Source: Paenibacillus taihuensis
GTDB lineage: Bacteria; Bacillota; Bacilli; Paenibacillales; Paenibacillaceae
DNA: 64,000 bases
Assembly (NCBI RefSeq): GCF_003386535.1
Contig: NZ_QTTN01000032.1
Coordinates: forward strand, 1 to 64,000
Direction: 5' to 3'
Made by a program: the position numbers and the translations under genes. Positions within the stretch are counted from its first letter, which is position 1; each line of letters starts with the position of its first letter. Shown one piece after another: positions 1,176 to 60,120 of the stretch. A model generated the notes under the pieces. That model saw only the letters and a list, made by a program, of their open reading frames with translations. It did no database searches and was not told the origin of the DNA.

Positions 1176-2639
1176 ATGAATCAGTCGCGCAAATGGTGGA
1201 TTTTGTCCGTAACGAGCCTTGGCTCCTTACTTTCCGCACTAAACTTCAGCACACTTATTATTGCATTGCCGGATTTGCTTAAAGGGCTTCATGCCTCGCT
1301 GCTCCAAGCGATGTGGGTCATGTTGTCCTACATGGTTGCCCAGACGGTTATGGTACTCATGGCCGGCTCTCTGGCTGACCGGTTCGGACGTAAACGAATC
1401 TATATTGCAGGGATGTTGTTGTTTACGGTTATCTCGCTGGCGTCAGGCTTCGCCGATGACGCACCGTTGTTAATTATATTGCGGATCTTGCAAGGAATTG
1501 GCGGCGCGATGGTCATGGCGAACAGCACGGCGATTGTCGCGGATGCATTCCCAAGAGAAGAGCTCGGCAAGGCGCTGGGCGTTAATATCATGGTCGTGGC
1601 AGTCGGTCAAATTATCGGACCTGTGCTCGGCGGCTGGCTGACGACGGCGTTCGGCTGGGAGTGGACCTTCTGGTTCAACGTACCGTTCGGCGTGATCGGC
1701 GTCGTATGGGGCATCATGGTCATGGGCGTCAAAGACGACAAAATTGCTGCACCGAAGACAGGCGGGCTTGATCGCGGCGGCGTTATTACTTATGTCATCT
1801 CGATTACCGGTCTCTTGATTGCACTGACTTGGGGACCGATTCAGAGCTGGACTTCGTCGGTGGTCTGGATTTCCGGCGCAGCCTTTGTTGTGCTGTTCCC
1901 GGTATTCCTGATCTGTGAACGGAAGCATCCGAATGCGCTCTTGCATCTGCCGCTGTTCACGAACCGAATCTTCTCGTTCGGCATCGTGTCTGCAACGTTG
2001 AACGCAATTGCCCGGATGGCCGTGATGTTCATGTTGATTTTCTATTTCCAAGGCGCGCTTGAGAAGGATGCGCTTGTCGCGGGTATTATGACGATTCCGC
2101 TTGCGGCAGGCATGCTCGTCGTTTCGCCGCTTGCCGGAAGCCTTGGCGATAAGTATGGGGAGACGATGCCGGCTACGCTCGGCTTGCTCTTGAGCATTTT
2201 TGGCCTCGCTGGTCTGGCTCTCGATACCGGATTGTCCACGCCGTTCTGGCATTTGGCTGTTTACATGACCATTATTAGTATCGGTTCAGGGTTGTTCAAC
2301 TCGCCGAACTCGAGCAGCATTATGAATGCGGCCGGTGCAAAATACCGCGGCGAAGCGTCGGGTATCCGCTCCCTAACAACGAACATGGGCATGATGCTCA
2401 GCATCGCGTTCTCCATGCCGATCGTGACGCACAGCATTCCGCATGAAGCGATGCTGGCGATTTTCTCGGGGACGCAAGTAGGTATGAACGGCGATAAGTC
2501 GTCGCTTGGCGGGTTTATTACCGGCTTGCATGCTGTCTTCTGGTTCATGGCGGCACTGATGGCGCTGGCGACAGTCATGTCGTACTTGCGTTCGAATAAG
2601 CGGTCGCAGGCGCTAGGACAGTCCGTGCATCCGAAGTAA
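1176..2639 (+). CDS. MFS drug exporter, DHA2 (14-TMS, EmrB/QacA-like)
   Basis: 487 residues, almost all hydrophobic, with length and hydropathy fitting 14 transmembrane segments. MFS motif A is visible at residues 64-74 (GSLADRFGRKR), and the antiporter motif C in TMS5 at about 144-154 (GQIIGPVLGGW). Both are typical of proton-coupled drug:H+ antiporters. The ATG at 1176 has the site AAGAAGGAG upstream. Placement directly after a MerR regulator suggests inducible efflux; the substrate cannot be inferred. Confidence 0.9.
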   Translation: MNQSRKWWILSVTSLGSLLSALNFSTLIIALPDLLKGLHASLLQAMWVMLSYMVAQTVMVLMAGSLADRFGRKRIYIAGMLLFTVISLASGFADDAPLLIILRILQGIGGAMVMANSTAIVADAFPREELGKALGVNIMVVAVGQIIGPVLGGWLTTAFGWEWTFWFNVPFGVIGVVWGIMVMGVKDDKIAAPKTGGLDRGGVITYVISITGLLIALTWGPIQSWTSSVVWISGAAFVVLFPVFLICERKHPNALLHLPLFTNRIFSFGIVSATLNAIARMAVMFMLIFYFQGALEKDALVAGIMTIPLAAGMLVVSPLAGSLGDKYGETMPATLGLLLSIFGLAGLALDTGLSTPFWHLAVYMTIISIGSGLFNSPNSSSIMNAAGAKYRGEASGIRSLTTNMGMMLSIAFSMPIVTHSIPHEAMLAIFSGTQVGMNGDKSSLGGFITGLHAVFWFMAALMALATVMSYLRSNKRSQALGQSVHPK

Positions 2640-2707
2640 TGAAGTGAATAGCAGGTAATAGAAGTTATAAGAAGCTATAAGAAGGTAGTAGAAGGAGATT
2701 TATTGAA

Positions 2708-3613
2708 ATGCCGGATCGATCCGTTTATTTGAAATTGTGGGCTGTCTCGTTCTTATGGGGCTGCAATTATGTGGCAAGCGCGTATATGCTGCGCGATTTC
2801 TCGCCAATCTTTCTATCGTTTGCAAGGCTCGTCGTCATGTCGCTGTTTCTTCTGTCTATTGCGGCTGTCAATCGCTCGATGAGATGGCCGAACAAGCGGG
2901 AGTGGGGGCTGCTGCTGCTGGCAGGCATATCGGGTACGCTGATTAACCAGCTGTTCTATTTCACGGGCCTGCAGCATTCGACTGCTGGGAACGCGGCGCT
3001 TATTATCGCGCTTTCGCCGATTGCGACGACGCTGCTGTCGCGGATCTTCTTGAAGGAAGAGATTACTGTGACGAAGCTTTCCGGCGCTCTTGTTGCGTTA
3101 ATCGGCGTCATCTGTATCGTATTGTTTGGCGGCAAGGAGCTTGGAATCTCCAAAGGCGATATTTACTTGCTCCTTGCCATGCTCGGGATGTCCGTGAGCT
3201 TGTTGTTCATCCGCAAGCTGACGGTTGCGATGACTTCGTATGAAGTGACGATTTACGCCACCGTTATTGGGACGATCCTGATGGCGCCGGCTGTTGCTTA
3301 CGAAGGTATCGACGGGCATCTGCACGCTAGCCATCATCTGATGACTTGGCTGCTGCTCATCACAGTGGCGATTATTGGTCAAGGCGTGACCGGTTTCTGG
3401 TGGAACAAAGGGATCTCGGTTGTCGGCGCGTCGGTGAGCGCGATGTTCATGAACATTCCGCCGTTTATCGCGATCATTGTCAGCTACTTCGTGCTCGGAG
3501 ATTCAATCAAGCCTGCGCAGATCGCCGGCGGGGTGCTGATCTTGGCTGGCGTTGCGCTGAGTAATATGAAGCGCAAGGCGATTGCGCCGTCGGCGGCAAG
3601 CGTGGATGTTTAG
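2708..3613 (+). CDS. EamA/DMT-superfamily transporter
   Basis: 301 residues with ten predicted membrane spans arranged as two tandem EamA domains (about residues 5-140 and 150-290). The first half contains the usual 'FYFTGLQHSTAGNAALI' and 'TVTKLSGALVALIGV' signatures. These proteins export amino acids, nucleosides or related metabolites; the substrate here is unknown. The ribosome site AGAAGGAG sits 11 bases before the ATG. The 68-bp gap from the MFS gene carries short imperfect repeats (ATAGAAGTTATAAGAAGCTA), and the three genes 703-3613 probably form one operon. Confidence 0.88.
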   Translation: MPDRSVYLKLWAVSFLWGCNYVASAYMLRDFSPIFLSFARLVVMSLFLLSIAAVNRSMRWPNKREWGLLLLAGISGTLINQLFYFTGLQHSTAGNAALIIALSPIATTLLSRIFLKEEITVTKLSGALVALIGVICIVLFGGKELGISKGDIYLLLAMLGMSVSLLFIRKLTVAMTSYEVTIYATVIGTILMAPAVAYEGIDGHLHASHHLMTWLLLITVAIIGQGVTGFWWNKGISVVGASVSAMFMNIPPFIAIIVSYFVLGDSIKPAQIAGGVLILAGVALSNMKRKAIAPSAASVDV

Positions 3614-18054: not shown

Positions 18055-18214
18055 TTAACATGCATGTTTTTGTATCTCGGCGCCTGTATATGAATTCGTC
18101 ATGTCAGTCTGGTTTTAAGTCCGTTAGCGATCATAAAAGGGGAAATTACCAGTTAAAGGATTTGTCTGCCTGATGTCGAAATGTGGTTGTATGCAATCTG
18201 TGGAGGTGGGGAAT

Positions 18215-18826
18215 TTGACCAAGAAACAAACGATTTCAATCGTGCCGGCAAACGAAGCGTCATGGGAAGACTTGATGGCTGTACTCGGCCCTGCCAAGTG
18301 TCACGGCGTGCGCTGCTACTGCCAGCGGTTCAAGATTCCGAATTCGCAGTGGAATCAAGTAGACGACGATGAACGGGCTTACTTATTCCGCACGCAGACC
18401 GACTGTGATCATCCGGAATCCGATACAACGAGCGGCCTTATCGCTTACCTCGATAACGAACCGGTCGGGTGGTGCGCGGTTGAGGCACGTACTGCGTACA
18501 ACAATATATTAACAAGCAAATCCCTTTGGATTGGCCGTGAAGATGATAAGAGTGACGAAGGTATTTGGGCGATTACTTGCTTCATTATTCGTACGGGTTA
18601 TCGCGGTCGCGGGATCACGTATGAGCTAGCGCGCGCAGCTGTTGATTTTGCCAAAGAGAGCGGGGCACGAGCGGTGGAGGGATATCCGATGATTACGACT
18701 CCCGATAAAGTGATTACGTGGGGCGAGCTTCATGTCGGCAATCGCAATGCGTTTGTGGCAGCTGGTTTTCGTGAAGTAAGCCATCCGACCAAGCGCCGTG
18801 TGGTGATGCGATATGATTTTGAATAG
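18215..18826 (+). CDS. GNAT-family N-acetyltransferase
   Basis: About 203 residues from a TTG at 18215, selected because TGGAGGTGGGG lies 5 bases upstream; an in-frame ATG at 18173 has a poor site. The acetyl-CoA loop is 'IRTGYRGRGITYELARAAV' at about residues 130-148, and the fold ends 'NRNAFVAAGFREVSHPTKRR'. The CRCYCQRF motif near residue 30 (GVRCYCQRF) with the WGxxxx pattern is typical of a Firmicute GNAT subgroup of unknown substrate. The end overlaps the next gene's start by 14 bp. Confidence 0.82.
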   Translation: MTKKQTISIVPANEASWEDLMAVLGPAKCHGVRCYCQRFKIPNSQWNQVDDDERAYLFRTQTDCDHPESDTTSGLIAYLDNEPVGWCAVEARTAYNNILTSKSLWIGREDDKSDEGIWAITCFIIRTGYRGRGITYELARAAVDFAKESGARAVEGYPMITTPDKVITWGELHVGNRNAFVAAGFREVSHPTKRRVVMRYDFE

Positions 18827-19271: not shown

Positions 19272-19280
19272 ATACAAGAG

Positions 19281-19316
19281 AAAGACACCGACGCTAACGC
19301 GCCGGTGTCTTTCCAA
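19281..19316. terminator. Shared terminator of DUF4362 and DJ-1/GNAT genes
   Basis: AAAGACACCG (19281-19290) pairs with CGGTGTCTTT (19303-19312). The stem overlaps the stop codon of the convergent fusion gene at 19294. Confidence 0.8.
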
Positions 19317-20400
19317 TTTCTCGCTCATATAAGTTAACGCTCCAGACATTCACGTCAAAGCGGCCACAGTGGGTGAAGCCGGAGTTGACGTAATAGGCAT
19401 TCAGACTTGGGTTGTCGGCCATGCAGTCAAGCCGAATCCAGCTTTTTCCTTGAGCACAAATATAGTTTTCCGCGTAACGGATGAGCTCGTTGCCGATTCC
19501 CTCACCCGTACGGCTTCGCGCCGTGCATAATCGATGCACGTATCCCGCGTCTTCGTGATATAGTTCTCCCCAAATCTCCTTGTCTTCCCATTGAACGGAG
19601 AAGCAGCCTACAATCTCATCTCGAAGTAGGGCGACGAACACTTCATGTTCTCGCACAAACGCCTCGATATCGACTCGTTCAAAATACTGTTCCTTCCACT
19701 GCCAGAATCCGTGCGTTGCATGGATCCAATGTGCGGCGCCGATCAGAAGGGAGCGGATGCCGTAGACGTCTACATCTGTCGCTCTGCGGATCGCGAGCAT
19801 TTCGGAAGGCTCACGCCGCCAGTCATGCTCAAGCCGAGAGGCAGTCTCTAGCGCGCGTTCCTCACCGTGAAGCTTCGCGACGAGATGCAATGCCGCGTCG
19901 ATACCCGCTGTCACACCTGCCGATGTAATGAGACGGCCGTTGTCTACGTAACGGACGTTTTCGACCAACGTGGCACTAGCAGGCGCTGCCTCTAGGAGCA
20001 AATCCATAGCCCGCCGGTTCGTTGTCGCGCGCATTCCCTCGAGAAGCCCCGCCTTGGCGAGCAGAAGTGCCCCCGTACAAACAGACAGCGTAAAAGCTGC
20101 TCGCCGTGAAGCTGTGTTGATCCAATCCGTCAACGTCTGATTATGCATTTCCTTGCGCGATCCCCAGCCTCCCGGAACAATCAGGATGTACGGATCTGGA
20201 CAGTCTGATACGGTGAAGTCTGGCACGATCGTTAAGCCGCTAATTGTCCGGATAGGGGCGGTAGACTCCAAGGCGACGGTGTAAACGCGGAAGTCCTGCC
20301 CCCAATTGCTCGCTACTGCGAACACGTCGAATGGTCCGGTTACGTCCAGCGCATCCACTTGGTCATACACGAGTACGGCTACATTTTTAGCTGTCAACAT
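19294..20400 (-). CDS. DJ-1/PfpI (GATase1-like) and GNAT acetyltransferase fusion
   Basis: 368 residues. Residues 1-~190 form a DJ-1/PfpI domain of the isonitrile-hydratase/AraC-sensor type: YDQVDALDVTGPFDVF, the strand ILIVPGGWG, and the nucleophile elbow SVCTGALLLAKAGLLEG with Cys at 108. Residues ~203-365 form a complete GNAT domain with acetyl-CoA loop 'RSRTGEGIGNELI' (296-308) and 'NPSLNAYYVNSGF'. There is no helix-turn-helix, so this is an enzyme fusion and not a GlxA-type regulator. The gene sits behind a ZTP riboswitch on the reverse strand. Substrate unknown; regulation suggests purine or one-carbon linkage (inference). Confidence 0.85.
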   Translation of the reverse strand: MLTAKNVAVLVYDQVDALDVTGPFDVFAVASNWGQDFRVYTVALESTAPIRTISGLTIVPDFTVSDCPDPYILIVPGGWGSRKEMHNQTLTDWINTASRRAAFTLSVCTGALLLAKAGLLEGMRATTNRRAMDLLLEAAPASATLVENVRYVDNGRLITSAGVTAGIDAALHLVAKLHGEERALETASRLEHDWRREPSEMLAIRRATDVDVYGIRSLLIGAAHWIHATHGFWQWKEQYFERVDIEAFVREHEVFVALLRDEIVGCFSVQWEDKEIWGELYHEDAGYVHRLCTARSRTGEGIGNELIRYAENYICAQGKSWIRLDCMADNPSLNAYYVNSGFTHCGRFDVNVWSVNLYEREIGKTPAR

Positions 20401-20422
20401 TCTGGCACTCTCCTTAGAAAAT

Positions 20423-20457
20423 AGAAAAGCATCTGGTTATGAATAACCAAATGCTTT
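20423..20457 (-). terminator. Intrinsic terminator of the ZTP riboswitch
   Basis: On the reverse strand AAAGCAT-TTGGTTAT pairs with ATAACCAG-ATGCTTT, followed by TCTATTTT. It is directly 3' of the aptamer and before the fusion gene, the usual expression platform of a transcriptional ON-switch. Confidence 0.8.
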
Positions 20458-20530
20458 GCCCAGGCGAACGGCTAGTTTGTCGAATGCGCTCCCCCGTAGT
20501 GATCTACGCTCTCGCCAGTTACGCATTCCC
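20457..20530 (-). ncRNA. ZTP (pfl) riboswitch aptamer
   Basis: Read on the reverse strand: P1 GAATGCG pairs with CGCATTC, enclosing AACTGGCG, a GTAG/CTAC helix and GGGGGAGC; then a linker and the conserved 3' element CCGTTCGCCTGGGCA. The GGCG of the first internal loop can pair with the CGCC of the 3' element as the pseudoknot of this class. The order and the invariant ACTGGCG, GGGGAGC and CGCCTGGGCA segments are those of the pfl/ZTP motif, which senses ZTP/ZMP under folate shortage. It regulates the DJ-1/GNAT fusion. Confidence 0.88.
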
Positions 20531-20545
20531 TCTTCAAATACTGTT

Positions 20546-20574
20546 ATTATATGACTAGAGCGGCGTTTATTCAA
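20546..20574 (-). promoter_or_regulatory. Sigma-A promoter for the ZTP riboswitch transcript
   Basis: On the reverse strand TTGAAT (20574-20569) and TATAAT (20551-20546) are 17 bp apart, about 18 bp before the aptamer. Confidence 0.75.
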
Positions 20575-20638: not shown

Positions 20639-20654
20639 TATACTAATTGCATAC

Positions 20655-20750
20655 CTATGTACGGGTGCTGGATGAAGTCCGGCTGAGATGGGGAACGTAT
20701 TTCCCGGACCGTTAATCTGAACCAGGTAATGCTGGCGTAGAGAACGTATC
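20655..20750 (+). ncRNA. TPP riboswitch (THI element)
   Basis: The conserved strings are all present in order: ACGGGTGCT, GGCTGAGAT, CCGGACCGTTAATCTGAACC, AGGTAATGCTGGCGTAGAGAA. It precedes a terminator and the thiF-thiE-thiS-thiG-thiO operon, the expected OFF-switch arrangement in which bound thiamine pyrophosphate promotes termination. Confidence 0.97.
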
Positions 20751-20764
20751 GAATCTGTATTCGT

Positions 20765-20796: not shown

Positions 20797-20833
20797 CGTT
20801 TCCAGTTTGCGTTTCAAGAAGGGGGTACTGCTG

Positions 20834-21847
20834 ATGGACGTTCGTTATTCAAGGCAAACGTTGTTTGCGCCAATCGGTGAATCAGGGCAGCGAAAGCTGG
20901 GCCAAAGTGCTGTATGTATCGTTGGTATGGGCGCGCTTGGCACGGTGCTGGCTAACCATATGGTGAGGGCAGGCGTTGGATTCGTGCGGCTTGTTGACCG
21001 CGACTATGTCGAGCTGAGTAACCTGCAGCGCCAGATGTTGTATGACGAAGATGACGTAAAGCAGGGATATCCGAAGGCGATTGCGGCAGAGAAGAAGCTG
21101 GCTCGTATTAATTCTTCCGTTCGGCTCGAAGCGATTGTTGCAGATGCAACGGTTCAGAATATCGACGAGCTCCTGGATGGCACCGATCTGGTGCTGGATG
21201 GGACGGACAATTTCCAAACTCGCTTTCTACTTAACGATGCATGTTTTCGGAAAGGTATCCCGTTTGCCTATGGGGGCGCCGTCAGTGCGGATGGTATGAG
21301 CGCAATGCTTGTTCCGGGGGAGACGCCCTGTCTGCGCTGCTACATTCAAACCGCCGATGGAAGCGGGCAGACATGCGATACGATCGGCGTTATTGCGCCT
21401 GTCATCGATATCGTTGCTTCCTATCAAGCGGTGGAAGCGCTCAAGTACTTGGTCGGCGCTGGAGATAAGCGAAGAAATAGTCTCGTAACTTTCGACCTAT
21501 GGCATAACCGCCATTATGAGATGAAGCTTGGAGAGCCGGCAGCGTCCTGCCCGTGCTGCCAGTTGAAGCAGTACCCGGCACTTGATCCAGCTCAGCCAGA
21601 GCTGGCGGTATCCTTATGCGGACGGGAGACGGTGCAGCTCACTGGAAGTGGACCACTTGATCTGACGGTTTGGGGCGAGCGGCTCGCGCCTGCGGTTGTG
21701 AAGTTGACGTCGAACGCATACTTGGTGCGCGCTGAACTGCCGGAAGGCGAGCGACTCGTGCTCTTCCCTGACGGGCGCGTGTTCGTGCAGGGAACTGACG
21801 ATGTTGTTCGTGCCAAAACGTTATATGCGAGATATATCGGTGCGTAA
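20834..21847 (+). CDS. thiF: ThiF-type sulfur-carrier adenylyltransferase (HesA/MoeB/ThiF family)
   Basis: 337 residues. It adenylates the C-terminal Gly-Gly of ThiS for thiazole synthesis. ATP-binding loop GMGALG at 31-36, the Arg finger region 'SNLQRQMLYDEDDVKQGYPK', the 'DLVLDGTDNFQTRFLLND' strand, and two Cys pairs (CLRC and CPCC) that bind structural zinc. The C-terminal ~70 residues form a shortened variable domain without a rhodanese Cys. The ATG at 20834 follows AAGAAGGGGG. First gene after the TPP riboswitch, beginning an operon with thiE, thiS, thiG and thiO, which favours ThiF over MoeB. Confidence 0.88.
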   Translation: MDVRYSRQTLFAPIGESGQRKLGQSAVCIVGMGALGTVLANHMVRAGVGFVRLVDRDYVELSNLQRQMLYDEDDVKQGYPKAIAAEKKLARINSSVRLEAIVADATVQNIDELLDGTDLVLDGTDNFQTRFLLNDACFRKGIPFAYGGAVSADGMSAMLVPGETPCLRCYIQTADGSGQTCDTIGVIAPVIDIVASYQAVEALKYLVGAGDKRRNSLVTFDLWHNRHYEMKLGEPAASCPCCQLKQYPALDPAQPELAVSLCGRETVQLTGSGPLDLTVWGERLAPAVVKLTSNAYLVRAELPEGERLVLFPDGRVFVQGTDDVVRAKTLYARYIGA

Positions 21848-21868
21848 AGAAAAAGGAGGCTTCTGAAA

Positions 21869-22525
21869 ATGAAAGATTTTCGACTATATGCCATTACAGC
21901 TGAGCAGTTTCATCCGAACCGCGACTTGATCGAGGTTATGGAGGAAGCGATTATCGGCGGTGCAGATATCATTCAGCTGCGGGATAAAGCAAGCGGCAAG
22001 GAAGAGCTGCTCCGCAAAGCGCAGGCGCTGCGGGAGCTGACGCGTAAGCATGGTGTTACTTTTATCGTCAATGACCATATTGATATTGCGCTGGAGGCAG
22101 ATGCGGACGGCATTCATTTGGGCCAGAACGACCTCCCTTTGGAAGAAGCGCGCAAGCTGGTGGGCGATAAAATCATCGGAATCTCAACCCATGCGATTGA
22201 GGAAGCACGTTTGGCGGAAGCGCAAGGTGCAGATTACATCGGAGTTGGGCCAGTCTTTCGTACAGCGACGAAGGCAGATGTCGTCGATCCGGTAAGCGTC
22301 TCGTATGTGAGCGAGGTAGCTGCGGAAATCCGCATTCCTTTTGTCGCGATTGGGGGCATCAAGCTCAGCAATGTGGACGAAGTTATCGCAGCCGGCGCAG
22401 CTCGTATTTGTGCGGTGAGTGAAATCGTAGGCAGCGACGATGTGAGCGGCACATGCAGGGCGTTCCTCGCCAAGCTTGGCTGCAAGGACAAGGAGGAGGT
22501 TACCCGCAATGAAGCTGGTCATTAA
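21869..22525 (+). CDS. thiE: Thiamine-phosphate synthase
   Basis: 218 residues, TIM barrel. ThiE joins HMP pyrophosphate and thiazole phosphate to give thiamine phosphate. Signatures: 'IIQLRDKASGKEEL', FIVNDHIDIALEADADGIHL, LGQNDLP, and 'YIGVGPVFRTATKAD' (pyrophosphate loop), then AIGGI. These fit ThiE better than the aminase-like TenI, although both families overlap. The ATG has AAAAGGAGG upstream. The coding end overlaps the thiS start by 17 bp. Confidence 0.88.
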   Translation: MKDFRLYAITAEQFHPNRDLIEVMEEAIIGGADIIQLRDKASGKEELLRKAQALRELTRKHGVTFIVNDHIDIALEADADGIHLGQNDLPLEEARKLVGDKIIGISTHAIEEARLAEAQGADYIGVGPVFRTATKADVVDPVSVSYVSEVAAEIRIPFVAIGGIKLSNVDEVIAAGAARICAVSEIVGSDDVSGTCRAFLAKLGCKDKEEVTRNEAGH

Positions 22526-22709
22526 CGGGAAGGAATGCGAGCTGCTCGACGTTCAGACCATAGCGGATGTCGTCGCGCATTACGGATTGACGGGGAAGCC
22601 GCTAGTCGTCGAAGCGGGAGGCATTGTGCTGACGGCTGAGCAGTGGGGATCGGCTTTGGTGCATCCTCATATGCAGATTGAGCTGGTTCATTTTGTAGGA
22701 GGGGGCTGA
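22509..22709 (+). CDS. thiS: Sulfur carrier protein ThiS
   Basis: 66 residues, ubiquitin-like, ending in the required Gly-Gly (HFVGGG). Start ATG at 22509 with AAGGAGGAGG upstream, inside the end of thiE. It carries the thiocarboxylate sulfur made by ThiF to the ThiG thiazole synthase. Confidence 0.93.
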   Translation: MKLVINGKECELLDVQTIADVVAHYGLTGKPLVVEAGGIVLTAEQWGSALVHPHMQIELVHFVGGG

Positions 22710-22714
22710 GGTTA

Positions 22715-23491
22715 ATGAGGGATCTGTTTCGAATTGGCAATCAAGAATTAAGCTCGCGCTTCTTCATCGGGACGGGATTGTTCCCGAATCCGCACGTGCA
22801 GAAGGAAGCGATCAAAGCATCCGGCGCACAGGTGCTTACCTTCGCTATTCGGCGGATTAATCTCGAATCGGCCCGGGACGACTCGATTCTGCAGCATGTG
22901 CAGGATGAAGCTTATACTTATCTGCCCAATACGTCTGGTGCGAGGACAGCTGATGAAGCAGTGCGAATCGCACGACTTGCTCGTGCTTCGGGATTAAGCG
23001 ATTGGATTAAGGTGGAGATTAGCGCCAATGAGCGCACGCTTTTGCCGGACCCCATTGAGACGCTCAAGGCAACGGAAATATTGGTGAAGGAAGGCTTCAC
23101 GGTGCTCCCTTATATCACTGACGACCCGATTATGTGCAAAAGACTTGAGGAAGCAGGAGCGGCTGCGGTCATGCCCGGTGCAGCTCCAATCGGAACGGGA
23201 CTTGGTATTCTAAATCCGTACCATCTTGGTCTAATCGTGGAGGAGGCTAGCGTTCCCATTATCGTCGACGCAGGTCTTGGTACAGTCAGCGATGCTGCGC
23301 AGGCGATGGAGCTAGGCGTTTCTGCTGTGCTGATGAATACGCCTGTGGCCAAAGCGAAGGATCCTGTCTGGATGGCGGGGGCGATGAGACTAGCGATTGA
23401 AGCCGGGCGACTTGCTTATCTGTCGGGGCGAATGGAGAAGAAAAAGTATGCATCGGCGAGCAGCGGTTACGAAGCATTCAAGTTGAACTGA
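22715..23491 (+). CDS. thiG: Thiazole synthase ThiG
   Basis: 258 residues, full length. TIM-barrel enzyme combining dehydroglycine (from ThiO), DXP and ThiS-thiocarboxylate. Signatures: 'RFFIGTGLFPNPHVQKEAI', DSILQHV, 'LPNTSGARTADEAV', the DXP-imine Lys in WIKVEI (K99), 'AAAVMPGAAPIGTGLGI' and 'IIVDAGLGTVSDAAQAMELG'. Starts five bases after thiS. Confidence 0.95.
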   Translation: MRDLFRIGNQELSSRFFIGTGLFPNPHVQKEAIKASGAQVLTFAIRRINLESARDDSILQHVQDEAYTYLPNTSGARTADEAVRIARLARASGLSDWIKVEISANERTLLPDPIETLKATEILVKEGFTVLPYITDDPIMCKRLEEAGAAAVMPGAAPIGTGLGILNPYHLGLIVEEASVPIIVDAGLGTVSDAAQAMELGVSAVLMNTPVAKAKDPVWMAGAMRLAIEAGRLAYLSGRMEKKKYASASSGYEAFKLN

Positions 23492-23537
23492 ACGAGCAGG
23501 CGATAGAACTTCGAAGGCAAGGGAGAGTAAGTATCGG

Positions 23538-24653
23538 ATGAAAGAGCAAGTGATCGTGATGGGTGGAGGGGTTATCGGATTATCCTGCGCGTTCGAACTG
23601 CGAAAGAGAGGGCACGAGGTGACGGTAATGGAAACTAGCCGTTGCGGCGGGCAAGCCTCCGGCGCGGCTGCAGGTATGCTTGCGCCTTATTCCGAGAACG
23701 TTGAAGGACCAGATGCCTTTTTCCAGTTAGGTCTGGAGAGCTTGCAGCTCTATCCCGAGTGGCAGGCTGCCGTTAAGCTCGCTTCGGGACATTCGTTCGA
23801 ATATACGAATTCGGGCAGTCTCTACGCGGTATTTCATGATGCGGATTTGCTTGCATTTGAAGGGAGACAGCTCTGGCAGTGCCGGCACGGAGCTTCGTCA
23901 CGCATCGTTGAAGGCGGAGAGCTCCAGCGGTTAGAGCCGAATTTGGCCTCGAATGTACGAGCGGCGCTGTATACACCAGAAGAGAGCCATCTATATGCGC
24001 CGCACTATGTGAAGGCACTGGAGCAAGGCTGCCGCCTTATGGGTGTGGAAATTATAGAGCAGCTGGAGCAGCTTGCCGTGACAGAATGGCAGTCCGAAAT
24101 TCGAGTGCGTGCAGCGGATGGACGAATATTCAGCGGCGACCGACTGGTTGTGTGCTCAGGTGCTTGGGCGAAAGAGCTGGAGGAGACATTTGGCATCCGT
24201 ATTCCGGTGTATCCGATTCGTGGACAGATTTGCGCATATGAAGCGGATGCACTGCCGGTGCGGCACATGGTCTTCAGCAGTCAGGGATATTTAGTTGCCA
24301 AGGAGAACGGAACACTGGTCTGCGGCGCATCCGAAGATGTCGCGGGCTTCGATACTTCGGTGACGGACAAAGGCATCGAGCGGCTGCGGAAGTGGAACAG
24401 GCGGCTATTTCCAGAATTAGAGCATCGCGATCCGTTCCATCGCTGGGCAGGCTTGCGCCCTTCCACGCAGGATGGCTTCCCGCTGCTCGGTCCGCTTAGC
24501 TCGTCCGACCGTGTGATAATGGCTGCCGGACATTACCGGAATGGTATTCTGCTCAGCCCGGCAACTGCGAGATTCGTCGCAGATTGTCTAGATGAGAAGC
24601 AGACGGTCGAGTGCAAGAAGGCGTTCTCGCCGGAGAGGTTTGGTTATTTGTAA
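23538..24653 (+). CDS. thiO: Glycine oxidase ThiO
   Basis: 371 residues, FAD-dependent DadA-type oxidase. N-terminal FAD loop GGGVIGLSCAFEL (residues 8-20), 'CGGQASGAAAGMLAPYSE' (FAD-binding, near 36-54), 'VYPIRGQICAYE' and the C-terminal 'GHYRNGILLSPATARFVAD'. It oxidises glycine to dehydroglycine for ThiG. A thiO-type (aerobic) instead of thiH-type operon is normal for Bacillales. It is the last gene of the operon, followed by a terminator. Confidence 0.92.
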   Translation: MKEQVIVMGGGVIGLSCAFELRKRGHEVTVMETSRCGGQASGAAAGMLAPYSENVEGPDAFFQLGLESLQLYPEWQAAVKLASGHSFEYTNSGSLYAVFHDADLLAFEGRQLWQCRHGASSRIVEGGELQRLEPNLASNVRAALYTPEESHLYAPHYVKALEQGCRLMGVEIIEQLEQLAVTEWQSEIRVRAADGRIFSGDRLVVCSGAWAKELEETFGIRIPVYPIRGQICAYEADALPVRHMVFSSQGYLVAKENGTLVCGASEDVAGFDTSVTDKGIERLRKWNRRLFPELEHRDPFHRWAGLRPSTQDGFPLLGPLSSSDRVIMAAGHYRNGILLSPATARFVADCLDEKQTVECKKAFSPERFGYL

Positions 24654-59776: not shown

Positions 59777-59829
59777 CCCATTTACAATGTGGGGAATGAT
59801 CTGTTATGATGTTTGAAATATTTTGCAAA

Positions 59830-60120
59830 ACGCGATGATGAGAAGAGTAGGGAGTAGGTCCCCATACAGAGAGCTCCGGGTGCTGAGAAGGAGCAGGGGA
59901 GATGTTCCGCGAACCAAGCCTCTGAGCAGCGTGCCGGATCCGAGCTTTCGGTGATGTCATGACGGGAGCTCCCGTTACAGAGCTAGAGTATAACCGTTGT
60001 CTGCGAAGGGAATGACGTACTCGAAGAGATTAATATGGCGACATATTAATGAAGCTGGGGTGGCACCGCGAATAACTTCGTCCCCAAGACTAACAAGTCT
60101 TGGAGGTGAAGTTTTTTTTT
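59830..60120 (+). ncRNA. T-box leader upstream of the GlnRS-like gene
   Basis: Stem I features (GATGATGAGAAGAGTAGG, the AGAGAGCTCC.. distal part with GGGTGCTGAGAAGGAGC) and the anti-terminator T-box 'AGCTGGGGTGGCACCGCG' at about 60051-60070. The terminator ACTTCGTCCCCAAGACT / AGTCTTGGAGGTGAAGT plus T9 follows at 60074-60120. Candidate Gln specifiers are CAG at 59894-59896 and CAA at 59915-59917, but the specifier loop was not resolved by hand. Confidence 0.88.

Follow-up and report, generated by a model that had tools for sequence, protein, structure and literature searches.

A gene for a DJ-1/PfpI–GNAT fusion protein in Paenibacillus taihuensis was found to lie behind an RNA that, judged by its sequence, is an ordinary member of the ZMP/ZTP (pfl) riboswitch family, RF01750, and the linkage of this riboswitch with DJ-1 and GNAT genes recurs in Paenibacillus and its relatives. 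It appears fairly likely that the gene encodes a folate-stress-induced, two-domain small-molecule enzyme under a ZTP/ZMP ON riboswitch, probably serving in detoxification or repair. The window is the whole stretch of 64,000 nucleotides that was analysed, positions 1-64000 of contig C32 (genome of 6.79 Mb, 85 contigs). The following features of the locus all lie on the minus strand.

20546..20574 (-): sigma-A-like promoter, TTGAAT-17-TATAAT, 10/12 matches in a consensus scan (consensus match only)
20451..20532 (-): ZMP/ZTP riboswitch aptamer, RF01750, 61.1 bits by cmscan
20426..20457 (-): expression-platform terminator, 14-bp hairpin with a U-rich tail, adjoining P3
20409..20415 (-): putative Shine-Dalgarno-like AAGGAGA, 8 nt upstream of the ATG, read from the sequence
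19294..20400 (-): DJ-1/PfpI–GNAT fusion gene, 368 aa, ATG start, from the open reading frame and Pfam domains
19816..20400 (-): DJ-1/PfpI (isocyanide-hydratase-like) domain, residues 1-195, with Asp19, Cys108 and Thr109
20077..20079 (-): codon of the nucleophile Cys108, from the sequence and a profile alignment
19297..19812 (-): GNAT domain (family GNAT-A), residues 197-368, from Pfam and profile
19279..19314 (-): terminator-like hairpin at the 3′ end of the gene, overlapping the stop codon, from a hairpin scan

A cmscan of the whole window placed RF01750 at 20532..20451 on the minus strand with a score of 61.1 bits (E 1.8e-7), far above the gathering score of 39, and the match spans the full model (1-86). 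A preliminary description of this DNA had claimed a complete pfl/ZTP aptamer, and the letters that it quoted (GAATGCG/CGCATTC, ACTGGCG, GGGGGAGC and CGCCTGGGCA) are present. The terminator and consensus promoter that it named were likewise recovered, as the 14-bp hairpin with its U-rich tail and as TTGAAT-17-TATAAT with 10 of 12 matches; the consensus scan returned 3 promoter-like sites in the leader region, compared to 1.5 in shuffled sequences. The terminator stem begins directly after the final base of P3, so that aptamer and hairpin abut, and the hairpin region folds with a z of -7.5 relative to shuffles. In the minimum-energy fold of the leader, the aptamer helices and the terminator are both formed and are compatible with one another; that the bound aptamer excludes the terminator is thus taken from the riboswitch class, and by the same analogy the window aptamer would be expected to respond to its ligand and to act in the ON direction. 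The distance from the aptamer to the ATG is 50 nt. The next open reading frame past the fusion gene is convergent, which, together with the terminator-like hairpin at the gene end, makes the transcript look monocistronic. A second GNAT gene (18173-18826, plus strand) lies past the 3′ end of the fusion gene on the opposite strand.

In a search of 392 genomes of the order, the DJ-1 clade of the window protein (the window clade) was found at E <= 1e-45 in 55, the source genome included. With aptamers called by Rfam and by a model (R1) built from 25 ZTP sites, to which some of the tested loci had themselves contributed, a recount by strand and distance placed a ZTP aptamer upstream on the same strand in 42 of these 55 window-clade genes (24 of 30 loci from the 392-genome search and 18 of the 25 other genes). 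Between the end of the aptamer and the DJ-1 domain there are 55-71 nt in 38 cases and 94-156 nt in the other four. The aptamer of L057, counted among the 42, is a weak match with 41 bits on R1 and was missed by the motif scan. No aptamer was found at the remaining 13 of the 55 genes, three fusions among them (L039, L043, L048, L051, L052, L060, L014, L015, L023, L277, L280, L281 and L293). Fusions with an upstream aptamer number 18 of 21 in the 55-gene set and, across all loci, 21 of 24 distinct fusions after rows more than 97% identical were dropped; a 25th fusion, L106 of Cohnella sp. OV330, whose DJ-1 frame is split in the record and which has no aptamer, was left out of the 24. The survey of relatives that the preliminary description had proposed therefore shows no consistent absence of the aptamer from the fusions.

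A second sample, of 146 genomes of relatives (source genome included), contained full-length fusions in seven at E <= 1e-30, the one in the window among them. An Rfam ZTP element lies directly upstream of four of the other six (L005, L006, L008 and L010, not L007 or L009). Stand-alone DJ-1 genes (L011-L025) were also found to be linked with ZTP, in 11 of 15 loci (not L014, L015, L023 or L025), and none of five stand-alone GNAT loci (L026-L030) had a ZTP element at the gathering score. A census of 41 genomes counted 1-5 ZTP sites per genome, so the linkage with DJ-1 cannot be due to chance. The source genome has three such sites, the other two preceding rpiB-like and folD-like genes, as judged by eye.

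The closest named relatives of the fusion gene are mostly from Paenibacillus species. Aptamers were found at 13 of 20 named Bacillota loci, comprising 12 from Paenibacillus and one from Cohnella; the seven without are Paenibacillus L097, Cohnella L104 and L106, and loci from Bacillus, Metabacillus, Lederbergia and Tissierella. None of 60 loci that belong to other phyla or are unplaced has an aptamer, with just 66 nt upstream available in one of them (L168), and a role of DJ-1 as a ZTP target in all phyla is unsupported by these 60 loci. The 13 of 55 window-clade genes and the 60 further loci that lack the aptamer indicate that the task of the enzyme is not bound to folate stress everywhere.

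The structure of the leader was examined in an alignment of 26 leaders, hand-chosen among ZTP-linked window-clade loci, on which a structure derived from one member sequence was tested, an arrangement that favours the structure somewhat. The aptamer and terminator helices form standard pairs in 97.9% of pair cells, and pairing falls to 29-49% when the partners are shifted by 1-3 columns. Two-sided changes were found in 16 of 29 pairs, compared to a mean of 8.2 in shuffled alignments, and none of 500 shuffles reached as high a count. By helix, the paired cells amount to 96.7% for P1 and 100% for P2 and for P3; P1 and P2 show two-sided changes, while P3 is invariant and so silent on covariation. 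The terminator shows two-sided changes at 9 of its 14 pairs, and a strict scan for a hairpin with a T-tract found it in 40 of 48 window-clade leaders; on these alignments, the expression platform is conserved across species. The aptamer core is common to 25 aligned ZTP sites. It could be argued that the RNA resembles RF01750 and has ceased to respond to ZTP, or has become decoupled from the gene, since the evidence for a switch is drawn from sequence; the score of 61.1 bits, the shared core, the covarying terminator and the constant spacing to the gene make this extremely improbable.

The GNAT family of the window protein (GNAT-A) meets the riboswitch in several other arrangements. A 478-aa FolD–GNAT-A fusion, with both FolD domains recognised by Pfam, follows a ZTP switch in L274 (G012, 718-2277), and in L275 (G092, 1760-3111, minus strand) the switch is followed by a gene of the glycine-transporter family (PF03458) and then by GNAT-A on the same strand. 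GNAT-A stands alone behind ZTP in L299, L300, L303 and L309; a distant member follows a full aptamer in G237, and in G009 GNAT-A follows a degraded aptamer that scores 35.8 bits on Rfam, below the cut-off, and 50.8 bits on R1. The FolD fusion, the transporter locus and the four stand-alone genes would suit a reading in which the GNAT is the folate-linked part, acetylating a compound or protein of the folate or purine pathway, with DJ-1 as scaffold or regulator. We consider this unlikely. The GNAT-A profile matches 250 of the 392 genomes at E <= 1e-30, and among the best 30 GNAT-A loci only seven have a ZTP site (three of them DJ-1 fusions) and 23 have none, so that ZTP linkage is far commoner for window-clade DJ-1 (42/55) than for GNAT-A. 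Many ZTP-linked DJ-1 genes, such as the 11 of 15 stand-alone loci, are without GNAT-A, and the DJ-1 half has retained its catalytic residues. Seven further frames of about 350-370 aa (L354-L360) were considered as DJ-1 fusions and dropped, as what accompanies GNAT-A in them is a second, weak GNAT-profile stretch; a histidine-kinase-like gene adjoins three of them (L354, L356 and L359, by eye).

DJ-1 genes of a second clade, clearly separate from the window clade, were also found behind the switch. In the 41-genome census, 94 of 96 ZTP sites were read (two below the gathering score were omitted, and L029, also below it, was kept). By eye, most of the genes that follow are rpiB- or folD-like and some are purH- and purC-like; 19 of the 94 sites lead straight into a DJ-1 gene, nine of the window clade and ten of the second, with L250 a broken frame. 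A second-clade query, which itself came from behind a ZTP site, had matches in 65 of the 146 genomes, and ZTP lies upstream at 22 of its 30 top-ranking loci. The distance to the gene is 54-69 nt in 21 of these and 495 nt in L337. In this last locus (also recorded as L242), the switch is followed by a 107-aa open reading frame, NIPSNAP-like by eye, and then by the clade-2 DJ-1 gene.

Unfused DJ-1 genes may have a GNAT of a second family, GNAT-B, next door. Among 55 unfused DJ-1 genes with a ZTP link, 11 have the start of GNAT-B at most 320 nt past their stop codon (3 of 25 in the window clade and 8 of 30 in clade 2), compared to 0 of 29 unlinked ones, which gives a Fisher p of 0.006 with relatedness ignored. 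Left out of the count were near copies, genes with less than 500 nt downstream and all loci from outside Bacillota; for some of the clade-2 loci it was the ZTP site that had led to their discovery. Its labels came from the motif scan; because two of the 29, L334 and the L337 gene L242, do have ZTP by the covariance model, a fairer table is 11/57 against 0/27. The source genome has 85 GNAT matches, or about 1.4% of its genes if some 6,000 are assumed, so about one GNAT neighbour would be expected in 55. As GNAT-B follows just 11 of the 55, ZTP-linked DJ-1 usually works without GNAT-B beside it. Two loci are of note for their layout. L276 (G041, 419-1609 and 2584-3313) has two divergent ZTP switches, one ahead of a window-clade DJ-1 gene and the other ahead of a clade-2 DJ-1 gene that overlaps GNAT-B by 4 nt; L019 (1350-3091, plus strand) has a ZTP switch, DJ-1, GNAT-B and a second, distant GNAT, the genes apparently overlapping head to tail.

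A quick DJ-1 tree of 122 rows bears on how the fusion arose. The fusion state changes twice on this tree, most plausibly by one gain plus a loss in L041, and the fusions nest in a lineage whose DJ-1 genes stand alone and mostly follow a ZTP switch, with modest support at several forks. This fits a single origin of the fusion inside that lineage, and the nesting suggests that the switch probably arrived with the DJ-1 gene and that the GNAT joined afterwards. In the GNAT tree, L299, L300 and L309, stand-alone GNATs that directly follow a full ZTP aptamer, sit among the fused ones; a fourth of this kind, L303, had been dropped by the 97% filter. Their position suggests that the DJ-1 half was lost and the switch kept. 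A pre-fusion stage for these genes was set aside because of this nesting, although the AU test did not reject it (p 0.06).

The preliminary description had presented the fusion as a new ZTP target. The ZTP/pfl targets named in the text of Weinberg 2010 are purH, fhs, pfl, glyA, folD and other purine/THF steps (PMC2864571), and the fusion does lie outside the enzymes named there. The claim was too narrow, however: in other genomes of the order, ZTP linkage extends to DJ-1 genes that stand alone, in two clades, and to GNAT-A genes that stand alone or are fused differently, and the fusion is one form of this wider pattern.

Both domains of the protein, and a nucleophilic Cys108, had been proposed from the letters and are borne out. 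DJ-1_PfpI (PF01965) matches residues 5-175 with 84.8 bits (cut-off 26.6), and Acetyltransf_1 (PF00583) matches residues 231-342 with 40 bits (cut-off 20.7); PF00583 is matched by all 21 members of set A3 at E <= 0.001. Cys108 lies within SVCTG and is aligned with the SVCTG cysteine of isocyanide hydratase. The acetyl-CoA loop of GNAT enzymes has the motif Q/R-x-x-G-x-G/A; in the window protein it reads TGEGIG, in which the two glycines are invariant in the family alignment and the first residue is not R or Q. An AlphaFold2 model of the fusion has a mean pLDDT of 93.4 and a pTM of 0.69, the latter making the mutual placement of the DJ-1 and GNAT domains less sure.

The structural match lists for the fusion were filled by its DJ-1 half, for which isocyanide hydratase was found at the top (Z 29.6, rmsd 1.5, 185 residues), with 3mgk at Z 28.2 and human DJ-1 at Z 25.5. 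By profile alignment to 6ni5/3non, Asp19, Cys108 and Thr109 correspond to Asp17, Cys101 and Thr102 of isocyanide hydratase. Thr102 presumably has a catalytic role; a T102S structure exists, according to its entry title. The matching Asp is present in all 122 distinct DJ-1 rows, the Cys in 121, and the Thr in 116 (the other six have Ser). The set is also kept in rows without ZTP and in rows from other phyla, and is therefore not a marker of the ZTP-linked rows. According to PMC10971408, the attacking residue of isocyanide hydratase is Cys101, and the general acid/base is Asp17.

This match of fold and catalytic residues could be taken to mean that the DJ-1 half is an isonitrile hydratase or similar enzyme in the service of one-carbon supply, whose N-formyl product would be deformylated to formate and so feed formyl-THF, with the GNAT handling the amine. 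The presence of pfl, a formate source, among the regulon members named in the text of PMC2864571 would agree with such a role. Folate stress, however, would be expected to limit THF rather than formate, and 3mgk, which has no stated substrate, outscores the hydratase in the profile search (135.7 compared to 115 bits), so that this reading is rather improbable. Broad functions have been claimed for the DJ-1 superfamily, and a general stress DJ-1 (glyoxalase, chaperone or the disputed protein deglycase) might have come under a folate-stress switch by chance. Beyond these broad functions, a weak match to TIGR01383 (DJ-1 family glyoxalase III) would speak for this; the match, at 52.7 bits, misses the equivalog cut-off of 131.25, the fold resembles isocyanide hydratase more than human DJ-1 (Z 29.6 vs 25.5), and both the aptamer and the pairing with GNATs recur. 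We regard it as quite improbable.

A small-molecule enzyme with a Cys nucleophile, combined with N-acetylation, is favoured because the DJ-1 half resembles isocyanide hydratase with its Asp-Cys-Thr set and the GNAT half is nearest to 2oh1. In the mechanism that we propose, a shortage of 10-formyl-tetrahydrofolate would cause ZMP/ZTP to rise and bind the aptamer, and the bound aptamer would prevent the abutting 14-bp terminator from forming, such that the DJ-1–GNAT gene is transcribed. In the protein, Cys108, placed with Asp19 and Thr109 as in isocyanide hydratase, would be the nucleophile towards an electrophilic carbon in some small molecule; the acetyl-CoA-dependent acetylation of an amine would fall to the GNAT half. 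The joint target of both halves is probably a single metabolite or a naturally occurring folate antagonist, arising as folate supply fails, which they would detoxify or repair. These reactions and the kind of substrate are predictions, and the detoxification role is inferred from family chemistry. The preliminary description had put forward AICAR-derived or other amino/aldehyde metabolites as hypothetical targets for clearance. A more specific candidate can be formulated. Folate breaks down at the C9-N10 bond to pterin-6-aldehyde and the arylamine p-aminobenzoyl-glutamate, and the fusion might be a dedicated folate-damage enzyme, made only on the ZTP alarm, in which DJ-1 takes the aldehyde and the GNAT N-acetylates the arylamine. 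This would explain the separate ZTP linkage of both halves as well as the fusion of GNAT-A with FolD; we offer it as a speculation and consider it very doubtful. Under the broader reading of a detoxification or repair enzyme, the substrate is testable, since antifolates can serve as inducer, the enzyme is defined and single-domain versions occur naturally. For the riboswitch class, a response to folate stress is known from a reporter: a Pectobacterium ZTP-switch reporter was induced by trimethoprim in Pseudomonas (PMC10117056).

Two other RNA elements were observed in the window. A TPP riboswitch (20651-20760, plus strand, 64.5 bits) stands back to back with the ZTP riboswitch and heads a divergent thiamine operon (20807-24653) with ThiF-, ThiE- and ThiG-type genes and an FAD-oxidoreductase gene, and a T-box leader lies at 59826-60088 (plus strand, 95.6 bits, cut-off 93). 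A thiamine role for the fusion, suggested by the adjacent riboswitch and Thi genes, was considered and rejected: no TPP element at gathering score was found in 20 loci of relatives, including the nearest, L005 and L006 (about 1.5 kb on each side), and the thiamine neighbourhood is thus not kept.

In the usual view, the ZTP alarm signals a demand for more formyl-folate and purine enzymes. In Paenibacillus and its relatives, two DJ-1 clades stand repeatedly behind the ZTP switch and are joined, by fusion or as the following gene, by GNATs of two families, and this recurrent linkage predicts a shared chemical problem in folate-starved cells. It also provides a physiological context for members of two promiscuously annotated superfamilies. 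The riboswitch class itself is known. Nothing linking the ZTP/pfl class with DJ-1/PfpI or GNAT genes was found in the open-licence literature, supplements aside, and the main text of PMC3766115 has no mention of pfl, ThiJ, PfpI or DJ-1; an earlier mention of the DJ-1/GNAT target module may nevertheless exist.

Compared with known systems, the window RNA has the core, the P1, P2 and P3 helices, the terminator directly downstream and the ON-switch layout of the pfl RNA motif RF01750, as described in PMC2864571, PMC13273304 and PMC7266159; ligand-gated strand displacement is the mechanism of the class according to a title cited in PMC13273304. It differs in its target, which is outside the enzymes named in the main text of Weinberg 2010 (PMC2864571). 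The GNAT half has its nearest solved structure by profile in PDB 2oh1 (4.3e-25), a GNAT-family acetyltransferase that is, however, stand-alone, with 179 residues and no function stated in its listing. For the DJ-1 half, the best match by both profile and Foldseek is PDB 3mgk, a ThiJ-family protein of Clostridium acetobutylicum, whose 211-residue chain covers the DJ-1 part only and which is titled just a probable protease/amidase. The top NCBIfam match of this half is FtrA (NF006902), which we take to be an AraC-type regulator with a DJ-1-like domain; a reading of the fusion as an FtrA-like transcription factor was rejected, since the match of 117.9 bits misses the cut-off of 425, no DNA-binding domain was found, and the C-terminal half is a GNAT in place of that domain. 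InhA (isocyanide/isonitrile hydratase) shares the fold of the DJ-1 half and the equivalents of Asp17, Cys101 and Thr102, but is only about 36% identical to it over the structural alignment, and the window protein is distinguished by its fusion to a GNAT.
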